A DNA stretch of 34,480 nt. Origin: Desulfovibrionaceae bacterium. GTDB lineage: Bacteria; Desulfobacterota; Desulfovibrionia; Desulfovibrionales; Desulfovibrionaceae. Below the pieces are notes generated by a model, which was given only the letters and a program-made list of their open reading frames with translations, did not search any database and was not told the DNA's origin. Shown here in pieces: positions 1-29,573 of this stretch. Location of the stretch: contig JACCQI010000017.1 in assembly GCA_015709315.1 (NCBI GenBank), positions 28,804 through 63,283 of the forward strand, in the 5' to 3' direction. The position numbers and the translations under genes were made by a program. How positions within the stretch are numbered: the first letter of the stretch is position 1; every line of letters begins with the position of its first letter.

Positions 1-3000
1 CCGTCACCGGCACGGTCAGGGTCATGGAATCGCCCGCGCCGAGATGGTCATAGGCAATGTCGGCGGGATTGAAAACGAATGAGCCGTCCGGGTTGAGCGT
101 GAACCCGGCGGGCGCGGTCGTCCCTTCCCCAAGCGTGAAGGTCAGAACCGCTCCGTCATCCACATCGACGGCTGCGACCTGTCCGGTGACCGGAACTCCC
201 CCTTCGTCTGCGTCGACCACGGCATCCTCGGCCACGGGCACGTCGTTGACGGCCGCGACATCGATGAGTCCATGCGCGGGCACAAGGCCGGTGCCGTCGA
301 AAATGTCATAGAAAAGCCTTGCTTCGCCGTTGAAATCCTGGGCCGGAACAAAGGTCCAGGTCCCGTCGCCGTTGTCGATGACGGTGCCGTTTTCGGCGCT
401 GAGATTCCTGATGCCCAGAACATCGCCGTCCACGTCGGTGGCGGTGGCCAGGAGCAGATCTTCGGTCAGGACGAAGCCGGTATCTTCATCCGTGGCGAAA
501 CGGGTGGGACCGGACACCTCGGTCGCGTCGTTGACCGGAAGGATGTCGAAGGAAGTGGACGCGGTGGTGGTCCGCGTGTCGCCGTTGGCCTCTTCGGTGG
601 TGGCGGAAACATGGACCACGAGTTCGCCGTTGAAGTTCGGCTCGGGCGTGATGGTCAGGTTGTTCAGGTCCCAGCCCATGACGTCCACGGCCTGGCCCGC
701 CTCGGATATGGCGACCTCGTTCACGCCGTCGCTGACTATGGAGCCGACCGCAAGGTCGTCCACGCTGAGGGCCGTCAGGGTTTCCGAACCGTCGGCGTCG
801 ATCAGTGCGGCATCGAGCCGGACGGCCACGGCGTTGTCTTCGAGGACATCGGTGACCACCTCGCTCACCTGGATGACGTCGAGCACGGCCCCGGTGGAAT
901 TGTTGTCCGTGGCCTTGAGTTCCAGCCGAGGCTGGTCCGTGGTGGCGGTGAACGTATAGCTGTAGCTCTCCCATCCCACTTCGGGGACGATGGTGTCGAT
1001 CACCTGCCCCTCCCACATGACGTCCACGGCCGAGTCCTCGCCCCCACGCCCGGCCCTGGCCGAAAGATCGAAGGTCAATCGGACGGTGTCGCCCGCCTCC
1101 ACGTCCACGTTGCGATAAATGTTGCTGGCGTCGCCCCGGTTCCTCTCCAGCTCGACCACCTTGCCCCTGCCGTCCTCGACGCCGTAGACCCCGTCGTCGT
1201 AGGACTCGATGAAGCCGCCGACATTGTCCGTTTCCCAGCCGTTCAGTTGCGCCGAACCGCCGCTCCCGACAATGTTGTCGTCCCCGAAGGAGGCCAGGGA
1301 TTCACCGGCCACGCCTTCCAGGGTGATGGCCGCTCCATCGGCCACGCCCTCGACAACGACCGTCGCGCCCACGCGCGTCGAGTCGATCCCGTCGGTCACG
1401 TCATAGGCAAGGACGGCCTCGCCGCTGAAATGCTCGTCCGGGGTGAAGGTCCAGGTCCCGTCGCCGTTGTCGGCTATCGCGCCGTTTTCCGAGGTAAGAT
1501 TGCGGACGCTCAACACGTCCCCGTCGATATCGGCGGCATAGGCCAGGAGTTCTTCCTCGGTGATGAGCAGGCCCACGTCCTCCCGAACGGCAAAGGAAAC
1601 GCTTTCGCTCACCACGGGCACATCGTTGGTGCCGTCCACGGTGATGCGGATCTCGCTCGCGTCCGTTGCACCGTGCTCGTCCGTGACCGTCACCGGCACG
1701 GTCAGGGTCACGGAATCGCCCGCGCCCAGATGTTCGTAGGCAATGTCGGCGGGATTGAAAACGAACGAGCCGTCCGGGTTCAGCGTGAATCCGGCGGGCA
1801 CGGCCGTTCCTTCGCCGACCGTGAATGTCAGCACCGCGTCGTCATCCGCGTCCGTGGCCAAGAGTTGGCCGCTGATGGCGGCAGCACCCTCGTCCACCGA
1901 GGCCAGAACCTCGGCACCGGCAACGGGCGCGTCATTGGTGCCGCCCACCGTTATCCGTATCCGGCTGATGTCCGTTGCACCGTGCTCGTCCGTGACCGTC
2001 ACCGGCACGGTCAGGGTCACGGAATCGCCCGCATTCAGGTAGTCGTAGGCAGTGTCGGCGGGATTGAAAACAAACGAGCCGTCAGGGTTGAGCGTGAACC
2101 CGGCGGGCGCAACCGTCCCCTCGCCGACCGTGAAAGTCAGCACCGCGTCGTCATCCACGTCGGTGGCCGTGATCTGCCCCGTGATGGCACCGGCCGCCTC
2201 GTCAACCGAGGCCAGGACCTCGGCTCCGGCCACGGGCGCGTCGTTGGTGCCGTTTACCGTGATCCGCACCTGGGTGAAATCCGTGGCCCCGGCCCGGTCG
2301 GTGACCGTCACCGGGACGGTCAGAACGACGGAATCGCCCACGTTCAGATGTGCGTAGGCATCCACCGTTGCGTCGAAGCTGTAATGCCCGTCGGCATCGA
2401 GGACAAAGCCCGCAGGGGCGGCATGCCCTTCGGACACGCTGAAAACGGCGATCTCGTGATCGTCGACATCCTCGGATTCCAGTTGGCCCGCCATGAGTCC
2501 GTCGCCTTCCAGGACAGCCGCTTCGGGCACGTCGCCGATGACGGGAGCGTCGTTCACTTCGGCTATGTGGACGACCCCCTGTGCGGGGATTTGATGCACT
2601 CCGTCCGAGACCATATACCGAATCTTTATCTCCCCGTAAAAATGCTCGTCCGGGATAAAGGCCCACGTCCCGTCGCCGTTGTCGATGAGGGTTCCGCCCT
2701 CGGCCTCGAGATTGAAGGCGCTCAAGGCGTCTCCCTGGGCGTCGTGGGCGCTTTCAAGAAGCTGCTCGCTGGAAATGATGAGGGTCCCGTCCTCGTTCAT
2801 TTCCAATTCGACAGCACCGGAAACCACCGGGGCGAGATTGATCTGCTTTTGCGTGACGACCTCTCCGTCTTGAACGGAGACCTCAACGGGAATCCTGCCC
2901 CCCCTGTCATCAGGGGTGCGCGGGGTGAAGGCGAATGTGCCGTCCTGCCGATCCGTGACCGTGCCGACTTCTTCGGGAACGTCGAGGCCGGTCGCCTTGT

Positions 3001-3367
3001 AGCGGATGCCTTCGCTGGAAAAAAGCTGCGCCTCGACGTCGTCAAGACGGATCGTGGTCTCCGCGTCAGGGGAAGACAAATACGCCCTGGGTGCCAGCTG
3101 GGGCACTCCCGCTTCAATCGGCTGGGCCGCATACCCCTCGGGAATATCTTCATCCATGCCGACTTTCCGTACGGATTGGGCGGCACGGGTTTCATCCTGG
3201 CCGAAACCGGCTTCCGGCGCCGTTGCACTGACATCCTTGATAAAGACCGAACCATGCCGGGGAACCTCGATGACCCCGAAAATCTTCGCCTTGTTAAGCG
3301 ATTCGGCCCGGCTACCCGAAGCCGAAAGCCCGGCTTCCCCTGTCGAAACGTCATATTCTTCAGCCAT
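1..3367 (-). CDS. Giant VCBS/cadherin-like repeat adhesin, N-terminal 1122 residues (C-terminus outside the window)
   Basis: This is a secreted surface adhesin, probably the cargo of the type I secretion genes transcribed divergently from it. The frame is open from ATG at 3367 to the window edge, and AGGAG lies just upstream of the start. There is no Sec signal peptide; residues 1-120 are polar. Approximate layout: a linker to 180; a tandem-95/cadherin-like unit 184-269 (NGDGTWAFIPDEHF type); three VCBS units at 274-374, 376-477 and 479-580 with TNDAPVAG linkers and acidic DVDDDAVL motifs; a second tandem-95 unit 585-657; a galactose-binding-like beta domain near 692-828 (GWETDNVGGF...VVELERN); further cadherin-like units 830-1040; and a fourth VCBS unit cut by the edge. 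The acidic repeats suggest calcium-dependent rigidity. A C-terminal RTX secretion signal would be expected beyond the window and was not seen. Confidence 0.9.
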   Translation of the reverse strand, partial: MAEEYDVSTGEAGLSASGSRAESLNKAKIFGVIEVPRHGSVFIKDVSATAPEAGFGQDETRAAQSVRKVGMDEDIPEGYAAQPIEAGVPQLAPRAYLSSPDAETTIRLDDVEAQLFSSEGIRYKATGLDVPEEVGTVTDRQDGTFAFTPRTPDDRGGRIPVEVSVQDGEVVTQKQINLAPVVSGAVELEMNEDGTLIISSEQLLESAHDAQGDALSAFNLEAEGGTLIDNGDGTWAFIPDEHFYGEIKIRYMVSDGVHQIPAQGVVHIAEVNDAPVIGDVPEAAVLEGDGLMAGQLESEDVDDHEIAVFSVSEGHAAPAGFVLDADGHYSFDATVDAYAHLNVGDSVVLTVPVTVTDRAGATDFTQVRITVNGTNDAPVAGAEVLASVDEAAGAITGQITATDVDDDAVLTFTVGEGTVAPAGFTLNPDGSFVFNPADTAYDYLNAGDSVTLTVPVTVTDEHGATDISRIRITVGGTNDAPVAGAEVLASVDEGAAAISGQLLATDADDDAVLTFTVGEGTAVPAGFTLNPDGSFVFNPADIAYEHLGAGDSVTLTVPVTVTDEHGATDASEIRITVDGTNDVPVVSESVSFAVREDVGLLITEEELLAYAADIDGDVLSVRNLTSENGAIADNGDGTWTFTPDEHFSGEAVLAYDVTDGIDSTRVGATVVVEGVADGAAITLEGVAGESLASFGDDNIVGSGGSAQLNGWETDNVGGFIESYDDGVYGVEDGRGKVVELERNRGDASNIYRNVDVEAGDTVRLTFDLSARAGRGGEDSAVDVMWEGQVIDTIVPEVGWESYSYTFTATTDQPRLELKATDNNSTGAVLDVIQVSEVVTDVLEDNAVAVRLDAALIDADGSETLTALSVDDLAVGSIVSDGVNEVAISEAGQAVDVMGWDLNNLTITPEPNFNGELVVHVSATTEEANGDTRTTTASTSFDILPVNDATEVSGPTRFATDEDTGFVLTEDLLLATATDVDGDVLGIRNLSAENGTVIDNGDGTWTFVPAQDFNGEARLFYDIFDGTGLVPAHGLIDVAAVNDVPVAEDAVVDADEGGVPVTGQVAAVDVDDGAVLTFTLGEGTTAPAGFTLNPDGSFVFNPADIAYDHLGAGDSMTLTVPVT
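1625..2545 (-). repeat. Three tandem 309-bp VCBS repeat units
   Basis: The motif CCGTCACCGGCACGGTCAGG (plus-strand view) begins at 1687 and 1996, and a close variant begins at 2305. The spacing is exactly 309 bp, or 103 codons. Another copy begins at position 1. The neighbouring motif GGCGGGATTGAAAAC is also shared. The copies are very similar at DNA level, which permits unequal recombination and change of repeat number. Confidence 0.9.
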
Positions 3368-3968: not shown

Positions 3969-3980
3969 ATGGGGAATTGT

Positions 3981-5279
3981 ATGTTTCGCGACAGGGGCTT
4001 CGTTGGCTTGATCGTCTGTGCGGGCATTGCCTGCTTATGCCTTTTCCCGTTTACCGCAAATGCCGAGGAATTCCAGGCGGCGGCACGGTCGGCCCTGGCC
4101 AATTCCCCGGAGATGGAATCCGCCCGCAAAGACGTCCACGCGGCCGAAAGCCAGATGAAGGTCGTTCTTGCGGAATACCTGCCCCAATTGTCCGGCACCC
4201 TCAGGACCGGCGGCATCACGGAGGATTACGCCGACGATTCGGAGACATACGAAGAAACGATTGCGCGCCTTTCGCTGTCCCAGGAGATCATCGAGTTCTC
4301 AAAATACTACAACATAAAAAAAGCCGGGTTCGAGGTGGACGTCGCCAAGGCCAAGCTGGAGGACCGCGAACAAGCCCTTGTCCTGTCAGCCGCAAAGGCA
4401 TGGGCGACCTACTGGAAGGCACTGCGCGACCGGGAAATCAACGCCGACAACGTGATCACCCTGGCCGACTACGTCGAAGGGACCGAGCTTCGCTATGAAG
4501 CGGGCGAGTTGACCATTGCCGACGTACAGCTGGCGAAGAGCAAGCACGAAGCCGCGCTTTCCCAAAGGAACAGATTCCAGCGGAATCTCGCCGCTGCCAA
4601 GGAAAACTACACGCAGGTCATGCTGGCTTCCCCGCCCGGCGACATTGCCCTGCCCGAAATCGACATCAGCCGCTTCGAGCTGCCCGGCGACGAAGAGGCC
4701 GTGTCGGACCACCCGTCCATGCGCCCTCTCCTGAAACAGGCCGAGGCGAACAGTATGGACGTCAAGCGGCAACGGTCCGGCCATCTTCCCTCCCTGAGCT
4801 TCGAGTCGTCGGTCGCGCACCAGACAAGCGGCGAATACGCCCATTCGCGGTACCCGTACAACGAAAGCACCATCGGCGTGGTGCTCAAAATTCCCTTTTT
4901 CAGCGGGGGAGGCGTCTACTACGCCACCGACCGGGCGCAAGCCGCGGAAGCCGGCCTGCTGGCGGAGATGCGGGACCTGCATTTCAAGCTGGTACGGGAC
5001 CTCAACACGGCCAGGAGCAATTACGAAATAAACCGCGAAGAGCTTGAGATCGCGCAGCACCATGTGGAATACGCGAAAAACACCTTCCTGTGGATGCAGG
5101 AGGAATTCAAGCTCGGCACCCGAACTTCGGTGGACGTCCTGCTGGCCTTGTCGGCGATGGTGGATGCCCGCCTCCAGCTCGCCACCGCCCAGGAAGAACA
5201 TTTTACATTTATAATGGATTACCTATACGCATTGGGTATTCTATCCTCGGTAATCGAAGACGCTGCAAGCGCCAATTGA
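3981..5279 (+). CDS. TolC-family outer-membrane efflux protein of a type I secretion system
   Basis: This is the outer-membrane channel that would complete a tripartite exporter with the two ABC subunits and the HlyD-like protein downstream. From ATG 3981 the protein is 432 residues and begins with a basic patch, a hydrophobic core (GLIVCAGIACLCLFPF) and an ANA-type cleavage site, a typical Sec signal peptide. ATG 3969 is also possible, but GGGG at 3971-3974 sits at good spacing for 3981. The body shows the long alpha-helical, alanine/glutamate-rich repeats of outer-membrane efflux proteins, including a YEAGELTIADVQLA motif and a later RTSVDVLLALSAM counterpart, as expected from the internally duplicated TolC fold. 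Its length fits the family. The next gene starts 22 bases downstream. Confidence 0.88.
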   Translation: MFRDRGFVGLIVCAGIACLCLFPFTANAEEFQAAARSALANSPEMESARKDVHAAESQMKVVLAEYLPQLSGTLRTGGITEDYADDSETYEETIARLSLSQEIIEFSKYYNIKKAGFEVDVAKAKLEDREQALVLSAAKAWATYWKALRDREINADNVITLADYVEGTELRYEAGELTIADVQLAKSKHEAALSQRNRFQRNLAAAKENYTQVMLASPPGDIALPEIDISRFELPGDEEAVSDHPSMRPLLKQAEANSMDVKRQRSGHLPSLSFESSVAHQTSGEYAHSRYPYNESTIGVVLKIPFFSGGGVYYATDRAQAAEAGLLAEMRDLHFKLVRDLNTARSNYEINREELEIAQHHVEYAKNTFLWMQEEFKLGTRTSVDVLLALSAMVDARLQLATAQEEHFTFIMDYLYALGILSSVIEDAASAN

Positions 5280-5300: not shown

Positions 5301-7013
5301 ATGCGCGCAGAGGCGCTGAAAAAAGCCAAAACGAGCTCTGCATTGGCCCTGGCCGCCCGCACCAAAAGCTGGTTGGAGCTGATGCTTGCCATCCCCGCCT
5401 TCGTACCCGATGCGGCCACGCTGGCGGCCGTGACCGTGACGGTCAACGTGCTCGCCCTGGCGCTCCCCCTGGCCTTGATGCAGATCTATGACCGCATCAT
5501 TCCCAACTCCAGCTTCTCCACCCTCGGATGGCTCATCATCGGCGTGGCCACGGCCATCATTCTGGAAACCGCTCTCAAGATCGTTCGCGGATTCATCTCC
5601 AACTGGTTTTCTGCCCGGCTGGAGCATATCCTCAAGAGCGAGGCGCTGGACCATTTCCTGTCGGCCCGGCTGGACGGCTATGAAAAGGACCGGCCCGGCG
5701 TTCACTTCGAGCGATTCAATTCCATAGGGATCATCAAGGCATACCTGTCCGGCCAGGTAATGAACGTGCTGCTCGACCTGCCGTTTGCGATTCTCTATCT
5801 CGGGCTGCTGTATTATATCGGCGGCGGCCTCTGCTTTTTCACCCTGCTGTGCATCGCGGTCTTCTTTGCGATCACCCTCTTCTACAAGGCGCGGTTCACC
5901 CGACAGAATACAAGACAGGTCGCCCTGAACAACGAAAAGCTGGACTTCCTGCTCGAATCCCTGGGGGGCATCCACACCGTGAAGGCCCTGAACATGGAAG
6001 ACCGGCTGGCCAGAAAATTCGAGAACATCGAGGGAAGAGCCGCCGAGAACAGCCTCAAGGCGAACCGCTGGAGATCCATCCCGGCCAACAGCGCCCAGTT
6101 CATTTCGCAGTTGAATACCCTGGGCATCATCTTCCTGGGGGCCGATCTCGTCATCAAGGGAAGCCTGACGGTCGGCGCCATGACGGCCTGCACCATGCTG
6201 GCGACCAGGGGAATACAGCCCATCATCAAATTCGCAGGGTTTTTCCTGAGATTTTCCGAAGTCGGCATGGCCCAAAAACGGATAGGCAGGATCATCGAAC
6301 TCGGCGCTTCGCCCGGGGAAGCCGACATTCCCCTCATCAAGGATGTCGAAGGCAACGTTTTTTTCGAGGAAGTGAGCCTGCTCGAAGCGGACGGGAACGT
6401 GGTCATTCCGAAATTCAGCGCGGTCTTTCCCGCCGGGGACGTGGTCGGGGTGACGGGGACCAACCCCCGGCAGACAACGGCCCTCATGCTGCTTTTGTGC
6501 GGCATGTACAAACCGACGGGCGGCACCGTTCATATCGATGAATACCTAATTTCCAGCATGGACCATTCCCGGTTCAACGGGCGGGTGATGTACCTGCCCA
6601 AGCGGGGGCGGCTCTTCCAGGGCTCCATCCTCGACAACATCGTCATGTTCGATCCGGCGAAAAAGGACCGCGCGCTCAATGTCGCCTCGCTCCTTTCGAT
6701 GGACACGTTCGTGGCCAACCTGCCCAACGGCTACGAGACCCAGGTCGATCAACGATCCAACCATTCGCTGCCGCTGGGGCTGATCCACCGGATCTGCGTG
6801 GCCCGGGCGCTCGTCACGGGACCGCGCGTGCTCATCCTGGACAGGCTGTTGAACAGCCTTGATCGGGACACCCTGGAAATCACCTTGGAAATTCTGGGAA
6901 AAATGCGTGGACGATGCACCATCTTCCTGGTGGCCGACCACGGGGAATTCTTCATGGACATCGACAGCGTGGTCCGCTGCGCGGCGGACAGCCTGACCGT
7001 CCGTCCTGCGTGA
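5301..7013 (+). CDS. Type I secretion ABC exporter subunit with degenerate nucleotide-binding domain
   Basis: This is an inner-membrane exporter half-transporter of 570 residues. Residues 35-310 form the transmembrane domain (for example LPFAILYLGLLYYIGGG), and the nucleotide-binding domain follows from about 345. GGAGG precedes the ATG. The NBD has lost nearly all catalytic motifs. Walker A reads GTNPRQTT (about 386-393), with no lysine. The Q-loop glutamine is lysine (YLPKRGRLF). The signature is LPLGL rather than LSGGQ. Walker B ends LILDR, so the catalytic glutamate is arginine. The H-loop histidine remains (VADHGEF). There is no C39-like N-terminal domain. The frame is intact and the fold is well preserved, so it looks selected for, not decayed. 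I infer it is the non-catalytic half of a heterodimer with the ABC gene at 8365. Confidence 0.88.
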   Translation: MRAEALKKAKTSSALALAARTKSWLELMLAIPAFVPDAATLAAVTVTVNVLALALPLALMQIYDRIIPNSSFSTLGWLIIGVATAIILETALKIVRGFISNWFSARLEHILKSEALDHFLSARLDGYEKDRPGVHFERFNSIGIIKAYLSGQVMNVLLDLPFAILYLGLLYYIGGGLCFFTLLCIAVFFAITLFYKARFTRQNTRQVALNNEKLDFLLESLGGIHTVKALNMEDRLARKFENIEGRAAENSLKANRWRSIPANSAQFISQLNTLGIIFLGADLVIKGSLTVGAMTACTMLATRGIQPIIKFAGFFLRFSEVGMAQKRIGRIIELGASPGEADIPLIKDVEGNVFFEEVSLLEADGNVVIPKFSAVFPAGDVVGVTGTNPRQTTALMLLLCGMYKPTGGTVHIDEYLISSMDHSRFNGRVMYLPKRGRLFQGSILDNIVMFDPAKKDRALNVASLLSMDTFVANLPNGYETQVDQRSNHSLPLGLIHRICVARALVTGPRVLILDRLLNSLDRDTLEITLEILGKMRGRCTIFLVADHGEFFMDIDSVVRCAADSLTVRPA

Positions 7014-7032
7014 CGGATCGCCCGGAGGGAGC

Positions 7033-8349
7033 ATGGACAAGGCGAAATGGTCGAAATTCGTAATAGATACCGCCTCAAGGTGGGAGGACATCGAAGGCGT
7101 CGTCCGTTCGACGGGCATCGAGCGGATCGACCAGGACCATCGGCGGCTGCTCGAATATCTCCTGGACATGGGGGAACCCGCCGTGATGGGCGCGGACCGG
7201 CTGTCCACCTCCGCCATCATCGAGCATCAAAAGCTGGTTTTCCAAAGATTCCTGAACACGCTCAAGCGCCACTACCAAGCCGAGGAATACTTCCTGAACC
7301 AGTACGATCTGCCCGGCAAGGATGAGCAGCATTCCCAGCATAATTCCTTCATGGCCGAATCCGAGAACATCATCGGGCGTTTCAATTCAGGCGTGTTGTC
7401 CTTCTTCCGCACCCTGAAGACCGAAGTGATGGTCGAACTCGTCAAGCACATAAACACGCTGGACGCCCGGTCCTTCTCGCTGGACAACTTCCAGTCCGCG
7501 CTGCTCGGCGCCCGGTCATGGGATGACGTTACCGAAATCGTCAAATCCACCGGCGTGCCTTTCGTCGACGACGAACACCGGAAGCTGACGGAACTGATGA
7601 TCAAGCTCAGCGTCTATCTGACCGACGGGGGCTACCGAATCGACACCGACGGCCAAAAGGAAACCGTCCTGCGGATGACCGAGGCGATACTGGACTTCAC
7701 GAAAAAGCACTTCGCCCACGAAATCGTCTTCCTGAAACGGTACGAGTTGGAATTTGACAACCAGGAGGCGCTGCATGCCACCTTTACAGGCGAAATCGAC
7801 AGGATACTCGCCGAAATGCGCCGGGGGGACTTCCCCGACATGAAGGGCGTCGTCGAATACCTGTTCTCCTGGTGGGTCGGCCACATCAACGGCAGGGACT
7901 ATGTGGACTTCCATTTTTCCCGAATCGCCGACCCCATCTTCAAAAAGGCCGAGACCTCCGACGACTTCACCTGGCTCATCAGAAAAACCGGCATCGACCA
8001 GATCGACACCGAGCACTCCCAAATGATCAACATGCTGATGCAGATATACGCCCGGCAAAACCGCAACAGCAAATCATTCGATCCGCAAAAGGCGTTGGGC
8101 GGGCTGCTGGACTTCGTGAACCGGCACTTCAGCCATGAAGAGGACATCATGCAGGGCATGAACGTCAAGGAACTCGAAATCCACAGGGAAGCCCACCGCC
8201 GGATTTCAGGCAACATCGGCGACGGCTTGACCCACGCGGCGCTGGGCAAATCCCTTTTTTCCCCCCTGCAATGCAAGAGGCTGATGAACTGGTGGGTGGC
8301 CCACACCAACGGCATGGACTACGAAACGTTCGTCCTGAACCGCAATTGA
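7033..8349 (+). CDS. Triple hemerythrin-domain protein inside the secretion operon
   Basis: This 438-residue soluble protein has three bacteriohemerythrin domains (about 15-150, 160-310 and 315-438). Each binds a di-iron centre in the canonical family and carries O2 or senses it. Each domain has the opening IDxxH/VDDEH histidine, an HxxxE pair (HYQAE, HFAHE, HFSHE) and a closing HxxxxD (HINTLD, HINGRD, HTNGMD). Domain 3 has the complete HxxxH (HREAH). In domains 1 and 2 the first histidine of that pair is glutamine by alignment (QHSQH; QEALH), so their iron sites may be altered. There is no signal peptide or membrane segment. GGAGG precedes the ATG. The gene lies between the two ABC subunits, 19 bases after one and 15 before the other, which argues for a role in the exporter's control or protection. 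That role is inference. Confidence 0.92.
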   Translation: MDKAKWSKFVIDTASRWEDIEGVVRSTGIERIDQDHRRLLEYLLDMGEPAVMGADRLSTSAIIEHQKLVFQRFLNTLKRHYQAEEYFLNQYDLPGKDEQHSQHNSFMAESENIIGRFNSGVLSFFRTLKTEVMVELVKHINTLDARSFSLDNFQSALLGARSWDDVTEIVKSTGVPFVDDEHRKLTELMIKLSVYLTDGGYRIDTDGQKETVLRMTEAILDFTKKHFAHEIVFLKRYELEFDNQEALHATFTGEIDRILAEMRRGDFPDMKGVVEYLFSWWVGHINGRDYVDFHFSRIADPIFKKAETSDDFTWLIRKTGIDQIDTEHSQMINMLMQIYARQNRNSKSFDPQKALGGLLDFVNRHFSHEEDIMQGMNVKELEIHREAHRRISGNIGDGLTHAALGKSLFSPLQCKRLMNWWVAHTNGMDYETFVLNRN

Positions 8350-8364
8350 TCCGAAGGGAAGACC

Positions 8365-10512
8365 ATGAGCACACCAATGAAAAGAGAACGGGTCTCCGGC
8401 AAGCTCGGCAGGGTCATCTTTCCGATCCTCGACGCCCTGGGATGGGAAGGCGACAAGCGGCAATTCCTGAACGCCCTGCCCTACGACCTGAACCGCTTCG
8501 ACCTTGACGACCTGGTGAACACCATTGCCTCGCTCGGGTACGCGGTCAACAAGACATCCGGCTCTCTCAAGGAACTGGATGCGCGGATGCTGCCCTGCCT
8601 GTACCTTGACCGGGACCGCAACCCGCTCATGCTGCTCAATTTCGAAGACGGACGATTTCTCTGCTACGACAGCTGGATCAGCCAGTTCAAGAAGATCGAA
8701 CCCAATTCCGCCAAGGGCACATTCTTTTTCTTCGAAAACCTCGGGGATTCCCTGTCCAATCTGGAAAACCCGCAGCAACACTGGTTCTCCACTTTCGTCA
8801 CCCGGTTCAAGGGAAGCGGCGCGGTCGCGCTCTTCCTCTCCTTCCTGCTGACCTTCACGACGCTGCTGATGCCGTTCATCGTCCTGGGAATCTATTCCCA
8901 GATAGACACTGCCGAATCCATGACGGGATTCTGGGGAATCGGCATCGGCGTTCTGGGACTGTTGCTCATCGACCTGCTATTCAGGCTGTTCCGCCACCGA
9001 ATCGTGACCTTTCTGGGCGCAAGAATGGAATACCTGATCACCACCCAGGTCTTCAGGCGAATCCTGGACTTCAGCCCGACATCGACCGAAAACGCGCCCA
9101 TCGGATCACAAATCATACGCATGAAGGACTTTGCGTCGGTCAGGCAATTCGTGGAGGGTCCCGGCCTGATCGCCCTCCTGGAGCTTCCGTTTATCCTGAT
9201 TCTTTTTGTCGGCCTGATCCTCATGGGGGGAATGCTGGCCTACATCCCGCTGGTCGCAGCCATCCTGCTGATCATATTTTCCCTCATAACCCTGCCCTTT
9301 TCCAGAAAAGCCACCCTGAAGGCGAGCACTCACATCAGTAGGCTGCAATCCTTTCTTCTTGAATTCTTTACTGAATTTCAATCAGTCAAAATGAGCGGCC
9401 TGGCCGGAAGATGGAAACGGCAGTTCGAGACCCTTTCCGCGGACGCGGCCCTCACCTCCCTGGCGTCCGCGAACATCTCCACCGTCATTACCGGCGTTTC
9501 CCAGGGTACCGTGCAACTCGCGGGGATTCTGACCGTCGGGCTGGGCGTGATGGGCGTGCTGAACGGCCACTACAGCAGCGCGGTGCTCATCGCCGCCATG
9601 ATGCTGGTATGGAGGATAATGGCCCCGCTCGCCTCGGGCTTCTCCATCCTGTCCCAGTCCATCCACATCAGAAAATCCATCGAGCAGCTCGACCGATTCA
9701 TGGCCATTCCCCTTGAGCAGACCGTTTCGGACATGGGGGCGATCCGCCTTCGCGGTCCCATTGAATTCAAGGGGGTTTCCCTCAGGTACAAGCAGGATTA
9801 CCACCCGGCCCTCCTGGGCATCGACCTGACCATCCAACGGGGCGAGTTCGTCGTCGTCAGAGGGCATGACGGAGCCGGGAAATCCTCGCTGCTCAAGCTG
9901 ATCCTGGGCATGTACAGACCCCAGGCCGGAAGCGTGGCCATCGACAACTTCAACATCCAGCAGTTGGCGCCGGCCAGGCTCCGCCGGTCCATCGCCTACC
10001 TGCCCCAGCAGGACACGCTGTTCAGCGTCAGCATACGGAAAAACCTGAAATACTATTCACCGACCTCCAGCGACAACAATATGCGCGACGCCCTGCAACG
10101 GGTCGGGCTGTGGGACGAAGTCAAGGCGTTGCCGGACAAGCTCGACACGAAGATATCGGGCTGCAACGCCGGGGGCGAAGATGTGTCTTTCAGCCGACGG
10201 CTCTGCCTCGCCCGCACACTGCTGAACGATGCCGGGGTGGTCCTGATGGACGAACCAGCAATGGGACTTCAGTTGGAGGACGTCGAAAGGCTCCTCGATA
10301 TCCTGCATGGCTTCAAGGGACGAAAAACCGTCGTTCTCGTGGACAACAGCTCGGATTTCCTGCCGCTGGCGGACAAGGTCGTCACGCTCAACATGGGAAT
10401 GATCGTCGATGTCGAAACGCAGGGGGTGGAAAAGGACGCCGTCCCGGAAACCGCCGGGGCCGTGCATGTCGCCGCCGGCGACGCCGCAGCCCACCAATCC
10501 GGGAAGCAGTAA
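8365..10512 (+). CDS. Type I secretion ABC exporter with C39-like domain; intact Walker A/B, missing signature
   Basis: This 715-residue inner-membrane exporter belongs to the HlyB/LapB-like group. Residues 1-125 resemble the C39-like domain that binds cargo in RTX exporters, with no catalytic cysteine at the expected place. Transmembrane helices span about 150-430, and the NBD is about 465-690. Walker A GHDGAGKSS (near 500), the Q-loop (YLPQQ) and Walker B with catalytic glutamate (VVLMDEP, near 630) are all intact. The signature segment reads EDVSF just before SRRLCLAR where LSGGQ is expected, and the H-loop histidine is asparagine (LVDNSS). The defects complement those of the ABC subunit at 5301, which keeps its H-loop but lacks Walker A/B. 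A heterodimer is the natural reading. The C-terminal tail (after about 680) is alanine-rich. Confidence 0.9.
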   Translation: MSTPMKRERVSGKLGRVIFPILDALGWEGDKRQFLNALPYDLNRFDLDDLVNTIASLGYAVNKTSGSLKELDARMLPCLYLDRDRNPLMLLNFEDGRFLCYDSWISQFKKIEPNSAKGTFFFFENLGDSLSNLENPQQHWFSTFVTRFKGSGAVALFLSFLLTFTTLLMPFIVLGIYSQIDTAESMTGFWGIGIGVLGLLLIDLLFRLFRHRIVTFLGARMEYLITTQVFRRILDFSPTSTENAPIGSQIIRMKDFASVRQFVEGPGLIALLELPFILILFVGLILMGGMLAYIPLVAAILLIIFSLITLPFSRKATLKASTHISRLQSFLLEFFTEFQSVKMSGLAGRWKRQFETLSADAALTSLASANISTVITGVSQGTVQLAGILTVGLGVMGVLNGHYSSAVLIAAMMLVWRIMAPLASGFSILSQSIHIRKSIEQLDRFMAIPLEQTVSDMGAIRLRGPIEFKGVSLRYKQDYHPALLGIDLTIQRGEFVVVRGHDGAGKSSLLKLILGMYRPQAGSVAIDNFNIQQLAPARLRRSIAYLPQQDTLFSVSIRKNLKYYSPTSSDNNMRDALQRVGLWDEVKALPDKLDTKISGCNAGGEDVSFSRRLCLARTLLNDAGVVLMDEPAMGLQLEDVERLLDILHGFKGRKTVVLVDNSSDFLPLADKVVTLNMGMIVDVETQGVEKDAVPETAGAVHVAAGDAAAHQSGKQ

Positions 10513-10537
10513 CATGCCCGACGATGGGAGAATCAGC

Positions 10538-11878
10538 ATGAAAAACAACAATGAGAACACCGCGCAACAGTATCCCGGCAAGGCCCAGAACCGGCATATC
10601 GACCGATCGATCCTGCTGAAGGAGGCGGGCAGTTCGATCATGCTGAAGAGAATCGCCGCGGCCATGGCCCTCATCCTCGTCGTCTTCGTGGCCTGGGCCG
10701 CGTACCTGGAACTGGACGAGGTCGCCTTCACCACCGGCGAAATGGTGCATGAGGGCGACGAGATAAAGCTCAGGCACATGGTCGGGGGAACCGTGACGCA
10801 GATCCTGGTTCACAACAGCGCCATCGTGGAGAAGGGCCAGCCGCTGATCCGCCTTGATCCCGACGTGTCGCGCCTCGAACTGGAATCCATCGAGGGCGAG
10901 AAAATGGTCGCCGAGGCCGAAAAAATCCGCCTTGAGGCACTCATCAACGAAAAAACGCCCGACTTTTCCCCGGTCAAGGACCCCATGGTGCGCGAAACGC
11001 AGGCCAAGGTCTACGGGCACATCAAGAAGGCCCTCGAGGCCGAGCAGTTGGTCATTGAAAGCCAGATGAAACAGTTGAACAACGAGCTTTCGCTGCTGCG
11101 GCAGTCCCAAGCGAGCCTCAAGCGGACCGTCGACCTGGTGCAGGAAGAGCTGACCATCCGGCGGAAACTGGAAAGCAGGGGACTCAACTCGCGCATCACG
11201 CTTCTTCAACTGGAGAAGGAGTACAACGATGCGCTGTCCAGACTGCAACAGGTGCCGACGAACATGGCGAAGCTGGCCGAGCGCAGGGCGGAACTGGCCA
11301 CGACGCTCGCCAACCTGCGGGTAAAGGCGTCGAACAAATGGTCAAATGAATTGGCCGAGGTGAATACCCGATTGATGGCGCTGGAAAAGAAAATCAGCAT
11401 CTCCAGCAGCGGCATCGAGGGCCTGGATGTGAAGGCCCCCGTTGAAGGCATCATCCAGGACGTCAACGTCCACTCGGCCGGGGAGATCGTCCAGCCCGGC
11501 GAGGTGCTGCTCTCCCTGATACCCATTGAACGGCCGCTCGTCGCCAAGGTCAGGATAGCCTCCAAGGACATCGGTCACGTCCAGGTGGGCCAGGATGCCG
11601 TCCTGCGGATAACGACCTACGATCCGCGCCGCTACGGCGTGGCCAGGGGGAAGCTCACCAGCATCTCGCCGTCGGCCTTTGTCCCGGAGAACCGGGAACC
11701 CTACTATGAGGGGGTCATCAAGCTCGACCACAACTATATCGATTCCGGGGACAAGAAATTCCAGATTTTCTCCGGCATGACCCTGACCGCGGACATCAAG
11801 ACCGGGACAAAGACCCTTCTGGCATACCTCCTGAAGCCCATCCACCTCGCCAAGACCCTGGCCTTCAAGGAGCGGTAG
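10538..11878 (+). CDS. HlyD-family membrane-fusion (periplasmic adaptor) protein
   Basis: The adaptor would link the ABC pair to the TolC-like channel. From ATG 10538 (GGGAG at 10526-10530, 7-base spacing) it is 446 residues; ATG 10514, right after the previous stop, is the alternative. It has a short cytoplasmic N-terminus and a single membrane helix (IAAAMALILVVFVAWAAYL). A first lipoyl half follows (GGTVTQILVHNSAIVEKGQPL), then a long coiled-coil hairpin, the second lipoyl half (VKAPVEGIIQDVNVHSAGEIV), and a beta-barrel ending with the HlyD-type sequence FSGMTLTADIKTGTKTLLAYLLKPI. This C-terminal block is characteristic of type I secretion adaptors. It is the last gene of the operon; the next gene is convergent. 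Confidence 0.92.
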   Translation: MKNNNENTAQQYPGKAQNRHIDRSILLKEAGSSIMLKRIAAAMALILVVFVAWAAYLELDEVAFTTGEMVHEGDEIKLRHMVGGTVTQILVHNSAIVEKGQPLIRLDPDVSRLELESIEGEKMVAEAEKIRLEALINEKTPDFSPVKDPMVRETQAKVYGHIKKALEAEQLVIESQMKQLNNELSLLRQSQASLKRTVDLVQEELTIRRKLESRGLNSRITLLQLEKEYNDALSRLQQVPTNMAKLAERRAELATTLANLRVKASNKWSNELAEVNTRLMALEKKISISSSGIEGLDVKAPVEGIIQDVNVHSAGEIVQPGEVLLSLIPIERPLVAKVRIASKDIGHVQVGQDAVLRITTYDPRRYGVARGKLTSISPSAFVPENREPYYEGVIKLDHNYIDSGDKKFQIFSGMTLTADIKTGTKTLLAYLLKPIHLAKTLAFKER

Positions 11879-23673: not shown

Positions 23674-25752
23674 TTAATCGCGTGACCGGAAGGCGAAGGT
23701 CAACCCAATGCCGCCGTCCTCGGTCTCGCGGGACAGGTTGGGATTGTAGAAGGGGTCGCGGCGGAGAGCCGCTCCCCAGCGGTCGAGCATGATCCGTTTC
23801 TCCGCCCGAAACTCGCGCTTCTTGGCCGGGGTGTCCAGCCTTCCCCTGGTGACCGACTCGTGGTGCACGAGCACCGCGTCCGGGGTCCAGAGGTTGCTCA
23901 GCCCAGCCTTCCCGGCCCGCAAGCAGAGGTCCACGTCGTTGAAGGACACGGCCAGGGTTTCGTCGAACCCGCCCAGGGAATCGAACACGTCCTTCCGCAT
24001 CACCAGGCAGGCCGCCGTGTTCGCCGTGACCGTCTTCAGCCGGTTCAGATGGATATCCAGCCGGGGGTCGGCGGGATCGGTGCCCTTCCAGGGATGCCCG
24101 GCCAGGCCGATGCCCACGGCCACGCCCGCGTGCTGAATACGCCCGTTGGGATACAGGAGCTTTGCGCCCACCGTGCCCACGCCGCTTTGCAGGGCCAGCG
24201 GAACCATGGCCGCCATCCACCCCGCTTCCACCACCTCGATGTCGTTATTCAGGAAAGCCAGGACGCTTCCCCCGGCCTCGGCTGCGGCCAGGTTGTTCAG
24301 CCGCGAATAGTTGAACGGCATGTCCGCCCGCAAAACGCGGGCCGCGCCTTCGCGCTCCAGTCCGGAAAGATAGGCCAGGGTGTCCGGCTCGCGGCTGCCG
24401 TTGTCTACGACCAGGATATCGTAGTCGGCGTAGGCGGTTAGCGCCCGCAGGGACTCGATGCAGGTTTGCACAAGCTCCCTCCGGTCGCGGGTGGGGATGA
24501 TGACCGACACCTTGGGAGGCGGGGACGGCAGGGCAACGGGTTCGCGGCCCGAAAAAGATGAAAGGACCGTCCGCCGGACCGCTATCCTGGGGACGTGGGC
24601 CGCTGCCGCGTCGCCGGGGTCGCCCACAAGGACCGCCCGGTGCAGTCCGGCCGGAGACGCGCCCTTCCGCAACGCCGCGCGCGCCGGATCGGAGCGCACC
24701 AGGCACCCTGATCCGATGTAGTCCGCGTCCGCCTGGAGTACGGGGTCGAAATCGGGCTTGAAGACGGGATAGGCGGCCCCGTCGCCGTCCATCCGCTCCT
24801 CGTCGCCGTAGACGCAGACGGCGCCGGGCGATCGCCGCGCACCGTCCGCCAGACGGGCCAGCGCGCCGGGAAGCAGTTCGTTCCCGGCCTCCAGTGCGCA
24901 GACGAAATCGCCGCCCATGTCACCCATCTCACCAATGTCACCGGCCGCCCGCACCGTTCCCTCCTGGAAACCGGGCAGCCGGCGCACCGGGCAGCGGGCC
25001 TGCCGCGCCGCCGAGTCGCCGGGCTCCTCCCCGCCGATCACCAGACATTGCACAGGGAGCAACTCCTGGTTCCCGACCGAAGCCAAGGTGCGCTCCAGTG
25101 CCGGACCTCGGCCGCCCGTGATCAGGAGAGTCACTCCAACGGATCCGGAGGCAACGGCCAGACGGTCGATCTCGGCCTCCAGGAACGGCTCCCGACACCG
25201 CTTCCAGAGCGGATAGTCCTTCAGGGGAAGGCTACGCCGGACCATGCGCTGCTTGACCAGGGCATACGCCTTCTCCAGCCGCCCGCGCGGTTCGCGTAGC
25301 GCCGTCTCCGACGCGCCGAACCCGCGCTCCAGGGTGCGCAGCTCCGCCATCGAGCCTTCGCTGCGCAGATAGTGGGCCACCCGCCCGATCATGTAAAGAA
25401 AAGCGACCGCCGCCGACACGCGGAAGGCGCGGACTACCACCTCGCCTTCCGGGACCGCGTCGCCTACGGCGATCAGCCGGGCAACGTCCGGAGCAAAGGG
25501 GAAATACGTGAAGTGATCTATCTCGCCGTTGAGTCCGACGGGCAGGAACAGCGACGGGGCCGCATCGCCGAAGCCGAAGCGCAGTTCCAGGGGCGCGGAC
25601 TGGTCGTGCCGGTTCAGCCGCGCCAGGATGCGGTACCAGCCCGGACCGCTCTCGGGTCCCTTGCGCTCCAGTCCCCAGGCGAATCGTCCTTCCCCCGCGT
25701 CCGGCGGAACCGGGCGGCGATCAGCATCCGGCAGCGTCCAAACGATGGTCAT
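23674..25752 (-). CDS. Glycosyltransferase with two GT2 (GT-A) domains
   Basis: This 692-residue enzyme of O-antigen/rhamnan type transfers sugars from a nucleotide donor to a surface glycan. Residues 1-190 are a variable N-terminal region. About 190-400 is a degenerate GT2 domain (CLVIGGEE, then FVCALEAGNELLPGAL where DDE-type acidic residues are expected, and VYGDEERMDGDG, FKPDFDP). About 415-660 is an intact GT2 domain (VSVIIPTRDRRELVQTCIESL, DILVVDNGS, FLNNDIEV as DxD, and a GGFDE...FNDVDLCLR acceptor/base segment). The ATG at 25752 overlaps the WbqC stop as ATGA. It is last in the operon. Confidence 0.88.
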   Translation of the reverse strand: MTIVWTLPDADRRPVPPDAGEGRFAWGLERKGPESGPGWYRILARLNRHDQSAPLELRFGFGDAAPSLFLPVGLNGEIDHFTYFPFAPDVARLIAVGDAVPEGEVVVRAFRVSAAVAFLYMIGRVAHYLRSEGSMAELRTLERGFGASETALREPRGRLEKAYALVKQRMVRRSLPLKDYPLWKRCREPFLEAEIDRLAVASGSVGVTLLITGGRGPALERTLASVGNQELLPVQCLVIGGEEPGDSAARQARCPVRRLPGFQEGTVRAAGDIGEMGDMGGDFVCALEAGNELLPGALARLADGARRSPGAVCVYGDEERMDGDGAAYPVFKPDFDPVLQADADYIGSGCLVRSDPARAALRKGASPAGLHRAVLVGDPGDAAAAHVPRIAVRRTVLSSFSGREPVALPSPPPKVSVIIPTRDRRELVQTCIESLRALTAYADYDILVVDNGSREPDTLAYLSGLEREGAARVLRADMPFNYSRLNNLAAAEAGGSVLAFLNNDIEVVEAGWMAAMVPLALQSGVGTVGAKLLYPNGRIQHAGVAVGIGLAGHPWKGTDPADPRLDIHLNRLKTVTANTAACLVMRKDVFDSLGGFDETLAVSFNDVDLCLRAGKAGLSNLWTPDAVLVHHESVTRGRLDTPAKKREFRAEKRIMLDRWGAALRRDPFYNPNLSRETEDGGIGLTFAFRSRD

Positions 25753-26453
25753 GCCCTGCTCTCCAGCCATTCCCGAACAATCCCCGGCTCGCACCACATC
25801 AGAACGTCGAGAATGGACAGCCCCGGCTCGAAATCCCACCCCCGGCACGAATACACGAGGTCGGCAGGCTCGGTGATGGTCAGACGGATGTTCCGTGCGG
25901 CAAAGGCCTCGGGATCGAAAAGCTCCCGGCCGCCCGGCGGGTTCACGTACTCCCCGGCCCCCAAGGCCACGCTGATTTCCAGCGCCCACTGACCGGGGTG
26001 GGTGATCTCCGGGAGATCGAAACCCATCTCCGAGAACAGACTGCAATGGAAGGGAATATCCAGCAGGGCGCAGACCTCGGTCAGCCCCCGGACGTTCAGT
26101 TCGGCGAGAAAGTCGGTTTCACACCCCTCGAAGACCCGGCGCACCAGACCGGCCACCGTGTCGTGATGGGGAGCGCGCCTGCGGTAATGATCCAGTTGGC
26201 CAAGGATGCGGCGCAACGCCTCGTCACGGTCCCGGAGGCGGATGGCGCTGATGGGCGCGAACCGCTCGAACGAGGCCACGGACGCGGTCACGTACTGCCA
26301 GCCCTTGTTCGGATGCAGGATGCGGTTACGGTTCATCCACGACCTGGCTCGGTACTGGGCCATGTCGAAGACGATCCATCGATCCGTGCGATGGATGAGT
26401 TCAAAATACCCCACGTAGGGGAAGAAATAGGGCTGCATGATACCGAGCCTCAT
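25749..26453 (-). CDS. WbqC-family protein
   Basis: This 234-residue protein has the clear family opening MRLGIMQPYFFPYVGYFELI, followed by DRWIVFDMAQYRARSWMNRNRIL. WbqC proteins occur in O-antigen and other glycan clusters next to DegT aminotransferases and have been proposed to help modify the amino group of the sugar; the reaction is not established. Here it lies directly after two DegT genes and overlaps its neighbours by 4 bases on both sides, consistent with acting on the amino sugar they make. Confidence 0.88.
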   Translation of the reverse strand: MRLGIMQPYFFPYVGYFELIHRTDRWIVFDMAQYRARSWMNRNRILHPNKGWQYVTASVASFERFAPISAIRLRDRDEALRRILGQLDHYRRRAPHHDTVAGLVRRVFEGCETDFLAELNVRGLTEVCALLDIPFHCSLFSEMGFDLPEITHPGQWALEISVALGAGEYVNPPGGRELFDPEAFAARNIRLTITEPADLVYSCRGWDFEPGLSILDVLMWCEPGIVREWLESRA

Positions 26454-27679
26454 GCCGTTTCCTCCTGCCGCCCCCCCTTCAGGCGCGGACGGATGGCCCC
26501 CGCGTTTTCAACAAAAAAACGAATCAGACCGCAAATGCCCTCCACATCGCCCGCGGTAATCCCCTCGCCCAGGGGGAGTTGAAGCAGCTGCTCCGAAAGC
26601 CGGTCGGTGACCGGAAGCGCGTCCGTGTACTGGGGAAAATCGTCCCGGTAAGGCGGGGAACGGTGTGCGCCGGGGGTGAAATAGCGACGCGCCAGGACGC
26701 GCTCGCCCTCCAGCAGCAGGACTATGTCGTTGCGCGACAGCCCGGCTTTGTCCGCATCCACATCCACGATGAGATACTGGTGGTTGTTGGCCTCCCGCTC
26801 GTCGAAGGCGACCACGCCAAGCCCCGGCAACCCGCCGAGCCATTCGCGGTACAGACCGTAAAGTTCCGCGTTGCGGCGGCAGTTGCGCGGCAGATCCTCC
26901 AGGCTCAACAGCCCCATGACCGCCTGGGCCTCGGACATCTTGGCATTGATTCTGAGCGGTGCCTTGATGAAGGTCTCGGTAGTGTGGAAGTTGCGGATGG
27001 TCCGCAGAGCGTCGGCCAGGCCGTCGTCGTCGGTGGTGGCGAACCCGCCCTCGGCGCTGTTCAGCACCTTGGTGGCATGCATGGAAAAGACCTCGACGTC
27101 GCCGAACCCGCCGATCATCCGCCCGTCCAGGGAGCAGCCCACGGCATGGGCCGCGTCGAAGAAGAGGCGGATGCCGCGCTCCGAGGCCAGGGCCGATAGT
27201 TCGTCCACGGGGCACGGCCTGCCCCACAGATGCACCCCCAGGATGGCCGAAACCTCGTCGCTCATGGCCTCGCGCACGGTGCGCGCGGAGATGTTGTGCG
27301 TGTCCGGGTCCACGTCGCAGAAGACCGGATCAAGCCCGGCCCAGGACAGGGCCTGCACCGTGGCGATGAAGGTGAAGGCCGGGACCGCCACCGAACCCGT
27401 GAGTTCGAGAGCCCGCGCCGCGACCATCAGGGCGAGGGTCCCGTTGGTCATGCACACGGCGTGGCGCACGCCGAGGTGGTCCGCCAAGCGTTCCTCCAGC
27501 TCCCTGACCTTGGGGCCGTGGTTGGTGAAGAACCTGCGGTCGAAGATGCCCTGCATCCCCGCCCGGAAGCGGTCCCATTCCGGAAAATTCAGCTGCCCCA
27601 CATGCCGGGGCGCTTCGAAAAACGGTTCGCCGCCGAACCGGCCGAGGTCGTCGATGCGTCGCTTCGCCCGCCCCGTCAT
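26450..27679 (-). CDS. DegT/DnrJ/EryC1/StrS-type sugar aminotransferase (copy 1)
   Basis: This PLP enzyme of 409 residues transfers an amino group to a nucleotide keto-sugar. The PLP aspartate is in LFFDAAHAVG and the Schiff-base lysine is Lys204 in FSMHATKVLNSAEGG. TNGTLALMVAARALEL binds the phosphate. The sequence is close to its neighbour upstream, sharing RxxDDLxxFGG...GQL at the N-terminus, as after a tandem duplication. Start and stop both overlap adjacent genes by 4 bases. Confidence 0.9.
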   Translation of the reverse strand: MTGRAKRRIDDLGRFGGEPFFEAPRHVGQLNFPEWDRFRAGMQGIFDRRFFTNHGPKVRELEERLADHLGVRHAVCMTNGTLALMVAARALELTGSVAVPAFTFIATVQALSWAGLDPVFCDVDPDTHNISARTVREAMSDEVSAILGVHLWGRPCPVDELSALASERGIRLFFDAAHAVGCSLDGRMIGGFGDVEVFSMHATKVLNSAEGGFATTDDDGLADALRTIRNFHTTETFIKAPLRINAKMSEAQAVMGLLSLEDLPRNCRRNAELYGLYREWLGGLPGLGVVAFDEREANNHQYLIVDVDADKAGLSRNDIVLLLEGERVLARRYFTPGAHRSPPYRDDFPQYTDALPVTDRLSEQLLQLPLGEGITAGDVEGICGLIRFFVENAGAIRPRLKGGRQEETA

Positions 27680-28869: not shown

Positions 28870-29573
28870 GGAACGTATCTGCCCCTGCTCAAAACGGCAT
28901 CGTAGCGGTAATGGGAAGCATGGTAGCTCTCCGGCAGAGTCCTGAATTCCGTGTGCCAGCCGGCGGCGGCTGCAAGCTCGAAGAATTCCTGCCGCGTGCG
29001 CCAGATGCCGATGGCAGAGTCGTACTGGTCTTCGATTCCATCGACGTACGCGCCTTCGCGAAAGAAGTCGTTCATCCGTTCCTTGTCCGGCAGGTTGCCT
29101 ATGCACACACGGCTCACGGAAACGAACCGTTGCTTGAGTTCGGCCAGAAACGCCTTGGCCATGGCCTGCGGAAGGTATTGAAACGACCCGTAGCAGAACG
29201 CCTTGGTGAACCGCTTGGGATCGGGGAAGGCCCTCAGAAACTCCACTACGTCGGACAACTGGTAGGTCTCGCGCGGCGCGTCCTCGAAATGTTCCCGGGC
29301 CACGTTGATGAGCTGTTCGGAAAAGTCCACGCCGTGTCCTTGGGCGCAATGGGAGAAGACGCGAGTGGAGAGAGCGCCGTTGCCGCAGCACAGATCCAGC
29401 ATGCAGTCCTCCGGCTTCAGGTCCGTGGCCTCCACCACCGCCGCCACGATCATCTCGATCTGCTCCTCGGAGACCGGCTTGCCGCCCACGGTGCGCTTCA
29501 CCTGCCCCCAAAAATCGTCCGGCGCGCAGTTGCGCACCAGTTCGTCGTACATTTCATTCAAGGGCTTTTTCAT
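28866..29573 (-). CDS. Class I SAM-dependent methyltransferase
   Basis: This 235-residue protein has a Rossmann-type methyltransferase core: motif I is MLDLCCGNGALS (about 58-69), and motif II falls near GHGVDFSEQLINVARE. The C-terminal half (FRTLPESYHASHYRYDAVLSR) resembles small-molecule methyltransferases. AGAGGT precedes the ATG. It starts 57 bases after the fusion gene and is coupled to the aminotransferase, so N- or O-methylation of the sugar is plausible. The substrate is not visible in the sequence. Confidence 0.82.
   Translation of the reverse strand: MKKPLNEMYDELVRNCAPDDFWGQVKRTVGGKPVSEEQIEMIVAAVVEATDLKPEDCMLDLCCGNGALSTRVFSHCAQGHGVDFSEQLINVAREHFEDAPRETYQLSDVVEFLRAFPDPKRFTKAFCYGSFQYLPQAMAKAFLAELKQRFVSVSRVCIGNLPDKERMNDFFREGAYVDGIEDQYDSAIGIWRTRQEFFELAAAAGWHTEFRTLPESYHASHYRYDAVLSRGRYVP

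Follow-up and report, generated by a model that had tools for sequence, protein, structure and literature searches.

The 34,480-nucleotide stretch of DNA analyzed here (the window; positions 28,804 to 63,283 of contig JACCQI010000017.1, C87, in the 3.28 Mb genome of a Desulfovibrionaceae bacterium) carries a type I secretion operon with two different ATP-binding cassette (ABC) subunits, hereafter ABC1 and ABC2, whose genes flank a hemerythrin gene. The two subunits have lost ATP-site motifs in a complementary manner, and these losses recurred in 24 ABC1/ABC2 pairs. We consider it likely that ABC1 and ABC2 form an obligate heterodimeric type I transporter with one dead and one atypical ATP site, linked to hemerythrin. 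The pair is an asymmetric type I ABC pair more degenerate than those described, its link to hemerythrin consisting of gene order and one fusion; it is best placed within type I secretion, as a variant, instead of in a machine class of its own, and is neither an artefact nor a product of decay. If the heterodimer is real, it would amount to a natural test of the ATP-site residues needed by an ABC motor that secretes proteins, and would go beyond the asymmetric exporters treated in the consulted sections of a review (PMC7756269).

Complementary losses in the two ABC subunits

According to a preliminary description, drawn from the DNA letters, the Walker A lysine and the catalytic glutamate are absent from ABC1, and ABC2 keeps Walker A, the Q-loop and Walker B and has asparagine at the H-loop. 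All of this was borne out in the window (Table 1), where both reading frames lie at the coordinates given, and both ABC1 residues are missing throughout the 24 pairs (Lys 0/24, Glu 0/24, the latter position holding Lys, Arg or, once, Gln). The histidine credited to the ABC1 H-loop was rejected, since alignments with type I relatives put His547 one residue off, with Asp546 at the aligned position; His stands there in 0/23 ABC1 proteins. Loss of the ABC1 Q-loop Gln is real in the window but is not a typical trait: Gln occurs in 19/24 ABC1 proteins, and in 11/12 within the family, and its loss was thus discarded as part of the design. Similarly, LSGGQ is absent from both window subunits, as stated, but the better site is not signature-free, with Gly4 retained in 22/24 and the D-loop Asp in 23/23 ABC1 proteins.

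In these counts, denominators below 24 give the proteins with a letter at the column in question. Two copies of other loci (L061 of L043 and L065 of L049) were excluded, and L063, which lacks ABC1 because of a contig end, stands outside the 24 pairs. The ABC1 of L064 is split over two frames, both pieces being used unaltered, and its second piece supplied the counted letters from the signature through Walker B and the D-loop to the H-loop; only the open piece of the L053 ABC2, which has stops, was counted.

The losses divide along the two ATP sites that an ABC1/ABC2 dimer would form. On the Walker side of ABC2, the A-loop aromatic residue was present in 23/24 proteins, the Walker A Lys in 24/24, the Q-loop Gln in 20/24, and the Walker B Asp and Glu in 23/23 and 22/23, respectively. 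The ABC1 signature side that would face it holds, besides Gly4 and the D-loop Asp, Ser2 in 6/24 and Gly3 in 0/24 cases. The ABC2 H-loop His was present in 3/23 proteins; Asn occupies this position in 12/12 proteins within the family, and a wider set (n = 12 with a letter) comprised five Asn, four His, two Pro and one Lys. At the opposite site, the ABC2 signature side retains Gly3 in 0/23, Gly4 in 1/23, Ser2 in 8/23 and the D-loop Asp in 6/23 proteins, and would meet an ABC1 Walker side devoid of Lys, Glu and H-loop His. Altogether, 166/236 canonical residues were counted at the site composed of the ABC2 Walker side and the ABC1 signature, compared to 73/235 at the opposite site.

Genomes of the family supplied 14 type I ABC proteins to our first motif alignment; two of these proteins (L017 and L020) proved to be of the dual type. 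In the later canonical set, also of 14 proteins, L100 and L101 were substituted for them, and every counted motif residue was present in 14/14. The losses were found at the same positions in relatives 29–35% (ABC1) and 34–37% (ABC2) identical to the window proteins. Since they are shared by such distant relatives while all 14 canonical proteins retain all motifs, they exceed what chance would produce. Moreover, the kept and lost halves match only if ABC1 faces ABC2, which argues for a heterodimer. As in asymmetric exporters, two co-encoded half transporters show complementary motif loss; the one consensus ATP site retained by such exporters was not found, as the Ser2, Gly3 and H-loop His counts indicate. 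Judged from motifs alone, neither subunit having a full set, the pair also departs from the type I homodimer with two consensus ATP sites.

Table 1. Genes of the type I secretion locus and ATP-site motifs of its two ABC subunits (genes in window positions, motifs in amino acids of the respective protein)
Feature	Position	Strand	Content or evidence
Cadherin-like adhesin, N-terminal part, large, divergent from operon	2-3367	-	continues off window
TolC-family outer membrane protein	3969-5279	+	Pfam OEP E=4e-47; TIGR01844 188 bits, under cut-off 225
ABC1, type I secretion ABC subunit beginning at membrane domain	5301-7013	+	ABC_membrane, ABC_tran
Three-domain hemerythrin, between ABC1 and ABC2	7033-8349	+	Pfam Hemerythrin 2 stretches; NCBIfam hemeryth_dom 3 stretches
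ABC2, type I secretion ABC subunit with N-terminal domain	8365-10512	+	family scans, alignments
HlyD-type membrane fusion protein	10538-11878	+	TIGR01843 type_I_hlyD 313 bits, cut-off 208.65
ABC1 Walker A	aa 386-393		GTNPRQTT, Lys to Thr
ABC1 Q-loop	aa 431-435		YLPKR, Gln to Lys
ABC1 signature	aa 490-494		LPLGL
ABC1 Walker B	aa 511-515		LILDR, Glu to Arg
ABC1 D-loop	aa 517-521
ABC1 H-loop position	aa 546		Asp546; His547 one residue further on
ABC2 Walker A	aa 500-507		GHDGAGKS, intact
ABC2 Q-loop			YLPQQ, intact
ABC2 signature position	aa 605-609		EDVSF
ABC2 Walker B			VLMDE, intact
ABC2 D-loop			Asp lost
ABC2 H-loop position	aa 661		Asn661

Co-occurrence, selection and predicted fold

Within the family, 199 genomes were searched, the window's own included. 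ABC1 matches at E <= 1e-60 were obtained in 36 of them, 12 being set apart at E <= 1.1e-85, and ABC2 was found in the same 12 genomes (E <= 1e-90), near ABC1 every time. With a profile of ABC1 and its dual-type relatives, 16/199 genomes scored at least 538 bits and all others at most 376; the profile itself contained rows from 11 of these 16, but none from G117, G144, G037, G036 or G142. The high scorers consist of the 12 genomes plus four others, including those of dual systems L103–L105 and G142, whose ABC1-type gene is known from the profile score alone. In the phylum, an ABC2 search yielded 5/395 genomes, namely the window's own, one with a dual system (L099) and three with canonical proteins that have LSGGQ (L100–L102).

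When one genome per species was scanned with the ABC2 alignment, 42 loci were returned, of which the first 15 were taken as orthologues because they matched over most of their length and shared gene neighbours. Six of these wide loci belong to Magnetococcales and two to Desulfovibrio, with one each from SAR324, Methylococcaceae, Desulfamplus, Humidesulfovibrio, Opitutae, a Bacillota bin and Lambdaproteobacteria; two duplicate family genomes, leaving 13 new ones. Since all 15 come from metagenome bins by title, isolated, unexpected placements (Bacillota, Opitutae) could stem from faulty binning. The complementary degeneration put forward in the preliminary description holds in the 24 pairs, and the two subunits are co-conserved in the same 12 genomes. 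Orthologues with normal motifs, which that description had named as grounds for dismissing the idea, did not appear; the orthologues share the losses.

In an unrooted tree built by a quick method from 66 proteins (25 ABC1 types, 27 ABC2 types and 14 canonical; A_L053, B_L053, A_L057, A_L064, A_L064b and B_L069 were excluded), each of the three formed one group, with support by the Shimodaira–Hasegawa-like approximate likelihood ratio test of 100 for ABC1, 98 for ABC2 and 100 for the canonical proteins. Ratios of nonsynonymous to synonymous substitution rates (dN/dS) were 0.041–0.119 for ABC1 and 0.029–0.139 for ABC2, in four pairs each with computable dS. One more comparison per subunit was saturated, and the pairs are of relatives, the window having no close one. 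Both subunits of the relatives are under purifying selection.

Local decay, or a sequencing error in a dying operon, is accordingly very improbable. In favour of decay, the long branches of the window pair mark it as more diverged than most of its relatives, and one relative (L053) is truly broken; against it stand the recurrence of the losses across 24 pairs whose host organisms are far apart, the dN/dS of 0.03–0.14 (between relatives, not for the window pair) and the fact that all five operon frames are open in the window. Recurrent losses and the relatives' dN/dS refute decay as a general explanation.

The scores against curated models suggest that ABC1 and ABC2 belong to a divergent branch of type I ABC subunits: their best NCBIfam models are LssB, HlyB and PrtD, all under cut-off, and TIGR03375 gave 327 bits for ABC1 and 382 for ABC2, below the curated subfamily cut-off of 693. 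The AlphaFold2 single-chain model of ABC1 had a mean predicted local distance difference test (pLDDT) of 82, with HlyB, of the hemolysin secretion system, as its best PDB match and PCAT1 next. That of ABC2 (mean pLDDT 69) matched HlyB (7sgr and 8dck) best and then PCAT1, nearly the full length of ABC2 being covered; it was used for overall fold only because of its modest confidence (predicted TM-score 0.39). Both subunits are predicted to retain the exporter fold.

Hemerythrin and the proposed mechanism

We built a hemerythrin profile from the window domains and the aligned hemerythrins of ten relatives. It detected hemerythrin in 10/11 family loci and 15/15 wide loci; with the window counted and two repeats removed, 24/25 distinct dual loci have one. 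In 22 of the 24 hemerythrin-bearing loci, it lies between both ABC genes; in L049 it is fused onto the ABC1 C-terminus, and in L063 it lies 5' of ABC2 on a contig too short to include ABC1. The sole hemerythrin-free locus of the 25, L053, also has the broken ABC2. The preliminary description made no mention of this association with hemerythrin. The profile found no hemerythrin in 18 type I loci (L013–L030) with 1.5 kb flanks; without the dual-type L017 and L020 this amounts to 0/16, and with 0/3 in L100–L102 to 0/19, a control in which the motif state of L024, L027, L029 and L030 was not checked. It was likewise absent from 27 unrelated ABC loci. By the expected di-iron ligand pattern, domain 3 of the window hemerythrin has complete ligands and domains 1 and 2 are short of one His each; in the aligned relatives, ligands are complete in 9/10 (the exception being L052). 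This ligand count covers the window and the ten aligned relatives, not the multi-domain hemerythrins of most wide loci.

We propose that the ABC1/ABC2 heterodimer would take the place of the usual homodimer. The site formed by the ABC1 Walker side and the ABC2 signature side would be dead, and that formed by Walker A, Q-loop and Walker B of ABC2 with Gly4 and the D-loop Asp of ABC1 would be the only one able to bind and hydrolyse ATP. Hydrolysis there is probably slow or conditional, because L-P-x-G is mostly all that is left of the signature, and Asn usually replaces the H-loop His. Together with HlyD and TolC, the heterodimer would export the neighbouring adhesin, and hemerythrin, as a dedicated partner on the ABC1 side, would likely couple secretion to the oxygen or redox state. 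The heterodimer itself is well supported by inference. What we observed are the motif losses, the co-conservation, the selection acting on relatives, the gene order and one natural hemerythrin–ABC1 fusion; from these observations we infer the physical complex, its ATPase behaviour, its substrate and the role of hemerythrin. In a more tentative extension, which we regard as possible yet doubtful, hemerythrin docked on dead ABC1 would gate the one remaining ATP site with its reduced signature, and adhesin export would switch with oxygen as a result. Were this true, site degeneration would be a means of passing control from substrate-driven hydrolysis to a sensor, and a dedicated oxygen or redox sensor would be tied to a secretion ATPase rather than to transcription or cyclic di-GMP (c-di-GMP).

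The fusion in L049, together with the lack of Walker A Lys, catalytic Glu and H-loop His, would also suit an ABC1 that acts as a regulatory or receptor subunit outside the translocator, with ABC2 homodimers performing transport. We regard this as improbable: ABC1 keeps its membrane domain and the fold of its nucleotide-binding domain in the model, as well as Gly4 and the D-loop Asp, and an ABC2 homodimer would have Gly4 in 1/23 and the D-loop Asp in 6/23 cases.

Several observations weigh against the heterodimer with one active site. Gly3 of the ABC1 signature is gone in 24/24 and Ser2 in 18/24 proteins, and because of this the remaining site may not hydrolyse ATP. The ABC1 Walker side still holds the Walker B Asp in 23/24 and the A-loop aromatic residue in 16/24 proteins, in addition to the Q-loop Gln in 19/24. 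Conservation of Walker A in ABC2 is partly built in, as 12/24 of these proteins were fetched partly via the pattern GHDGAGKS; their other motifs and the ABC1 counts are independent of it. The tree run warned of long branches, the window pair included, and of B_window meeting B_L067. The system is patchy, with 12/199 family genomes and one further dual system in 395 phylum genomes, and the adhesin is assigned as substrate by gene position only. One locus, L053 (G117), has decayed, its ABC1 stopping soon after Walker B and its ABC2 containing stops. In addition, the hemerythrin profile found no match in dual loci L103–L105 or L106; in L103–L105, the ABC1 Walker B reads Asn-Glu, with Glu kept and Asp lost (3/3), and ABC2 is without the Q-loop Gln (3/3).

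The first of these points leads to another reading, in which the heterodimer binds ATP with hardly any hydrolysis and serves as an ATP- or hemerythrin-gated conduit that takes its energy from elsewhere, for instance from the Ca2+-driven folding of an exported repeats-in-toxin (RTX) protein outside. The constant lack of Gly3, and the usual lack of Ser2 and of the H-loop His, at the only plausible catalytic site speak for it. We nevertheless consider it unlikely, since the near fixation of the catalytic Glu (22/23), Walker A Lys (24/24) and D-loop Asp (23/23) at this site would be expected only if hydrolysis matters, and H-loop Asn is tolerated elsewhere: at nucleotide-binding site 2 of MRP1, Asn or Gln at the H-loop gives wild-type-like transport, according to the consulted part of the review (PMC7756269).

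Relation to known systems, variants and genomic setting

Asymmetric heterodimeric exporters keep a canonical second site and mostly move small molecules or peptides. In the passages available to us, Walker residues are lost in one partner and the signature in the other, Pdr5 being among the most altered, its degenerate site having suffered losses of similar extent (PMC7756269). The ABC1/ABC2 pair shares this complementary layout with TM287/288, TmrAB, BmrCD, TAP and Pdr5 and carries it further; unlike in those exporters, the signature of its second site is reduced and the H-loop His there usually missing, and the pair is encoded in a protein-secretion operon. LapB/HlyB-type secretion ATPases share the fold, operon partners and adjoining adhesin, but their motifs are intact in 14/14 canonical proteins and no hemerythrin lies within ~1.5 kb in the 19 loci checked. 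The preliminary description had called the arrangement unusual against the homodimeric norm, but a type I system with two ABC proteins was already known: the MARTX system (RtxB/RtxE/RtxD/TolC), compared here by description only, uses RtxB and RtxE, both of which appear necessary in the consulted sections of PMC3034196. The window operon differs in having a hemerythrin, a term with no occurrence in that review. The Bfs system of D. vulgaris has one ATP transporter, one membrane fusion protein and TolC next to an adhesin, and hemerythrin occurs once, in a proteome table, in the accessible text of that paper (PMC11784015). Hemerythrin domains sense O2 or redox state in c-di-GMP enzymes, as described in the available parts of PMC8846402; in VcBhr-DGC and Bhr-HD-GYP the output thus controlled is such an enzyme, whereas here it would be a secretion ATPase. 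The consulted portions of the open-licence literature, including PMC8277102, contained no description of this dual-ABC pair, which is weak evidence of absence. Two ABC genes plus hemerythrin would define a type I subtype recognisable from genomes, sulfate reducers and Magnetococcales included. Many Magnetococcales bins occur among L056–L070, alongside those of Desulfamplus and SAR324. A link of the carriers to oxic-anoxic boundaries fits hemerythrin and may instead be a sampling effect.

Loci L103–L105 make up another type I subtype with two ABC subunits, in which hemerythrin is missing and a cadherin-like adhesin lies immediately downstream. Their ABC1 has strings such as DSADQILP in place of Walker A, the Lys being lost, and their ABC2 has Walker A and the H-loop His and has lost the signature. 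In L099, from another family of the phylum and at the same place as L106, both Walker A motifs are intact and the ABC1 Glu is replaced by Asn, possibly an early stage of asymmetry. These hemerythrin-free variants and L099 could be different routes to, or stages of, one division of labour.

The window operon has the order TolC-ABC1-hemerythrin-ABC2-HlyD with gaps of 15 to 25 bases, and thereby encodes the ABC exporter, HlyD-type membrane fusion protein and TolC that characterize type I secretion. The HlyD frame was scanned as 10535–11878 and its start codon placed at 10538. As for the N-terminal C39-like domain of the HlyB/LapB class, a Pfam scan of the window proteins gave no C39 match in ABC2, although its model resembles HlyB and PCAT1 over nearly its full length, and ABC1 begins only at the membrane domain. 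Elsewhere in the genome, contig C53 carries a second, longer ABC frame of similar kind, 27% identical to ABC1.

From its position alone, the divergent adhesin, which has cadherin-like and VCBS-type domains, is a probable substrate of the pump; the next frame beyond the window start carries RTX repeats near its end. Upstream of the window start (L054:16608–16675), the adhesin changes frame between two overlapping open reading frames (ORFs), in a piece with a run of X (unread bases); the cause could be faulty assembly, the presence of two genes or disruption of one. Type I substrates usually carry a C-terminal signal. ORFs adjoining dual-ABC genes in L044, L045, L046, L049, L051, L056, L057, L059, L060, L062 and L070 share an N-terminal motif, ELDELTVLQD...DLSAEEQ, on otherwise unlike bodies that are often acidic or Pro/Glu-rich. 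ELDELTVLQD was located via a text pattern at 10 distinct dual loci (L049 and L065 being one locus) and by eye in L044; it could be an N-terminal export or receptor signal, which would be unusual among type I substrates. Its one match in the window's genome (E=0.069), antisense to a long phosphorylase-like frame, was judged false. Finally, on the minus strand at 23677–29508, the window carries two DegT/DnrJ/EryC1 aminotransferase genes and a family 2 glycosyltransferase gene, possibly a surface-glycan cluster.

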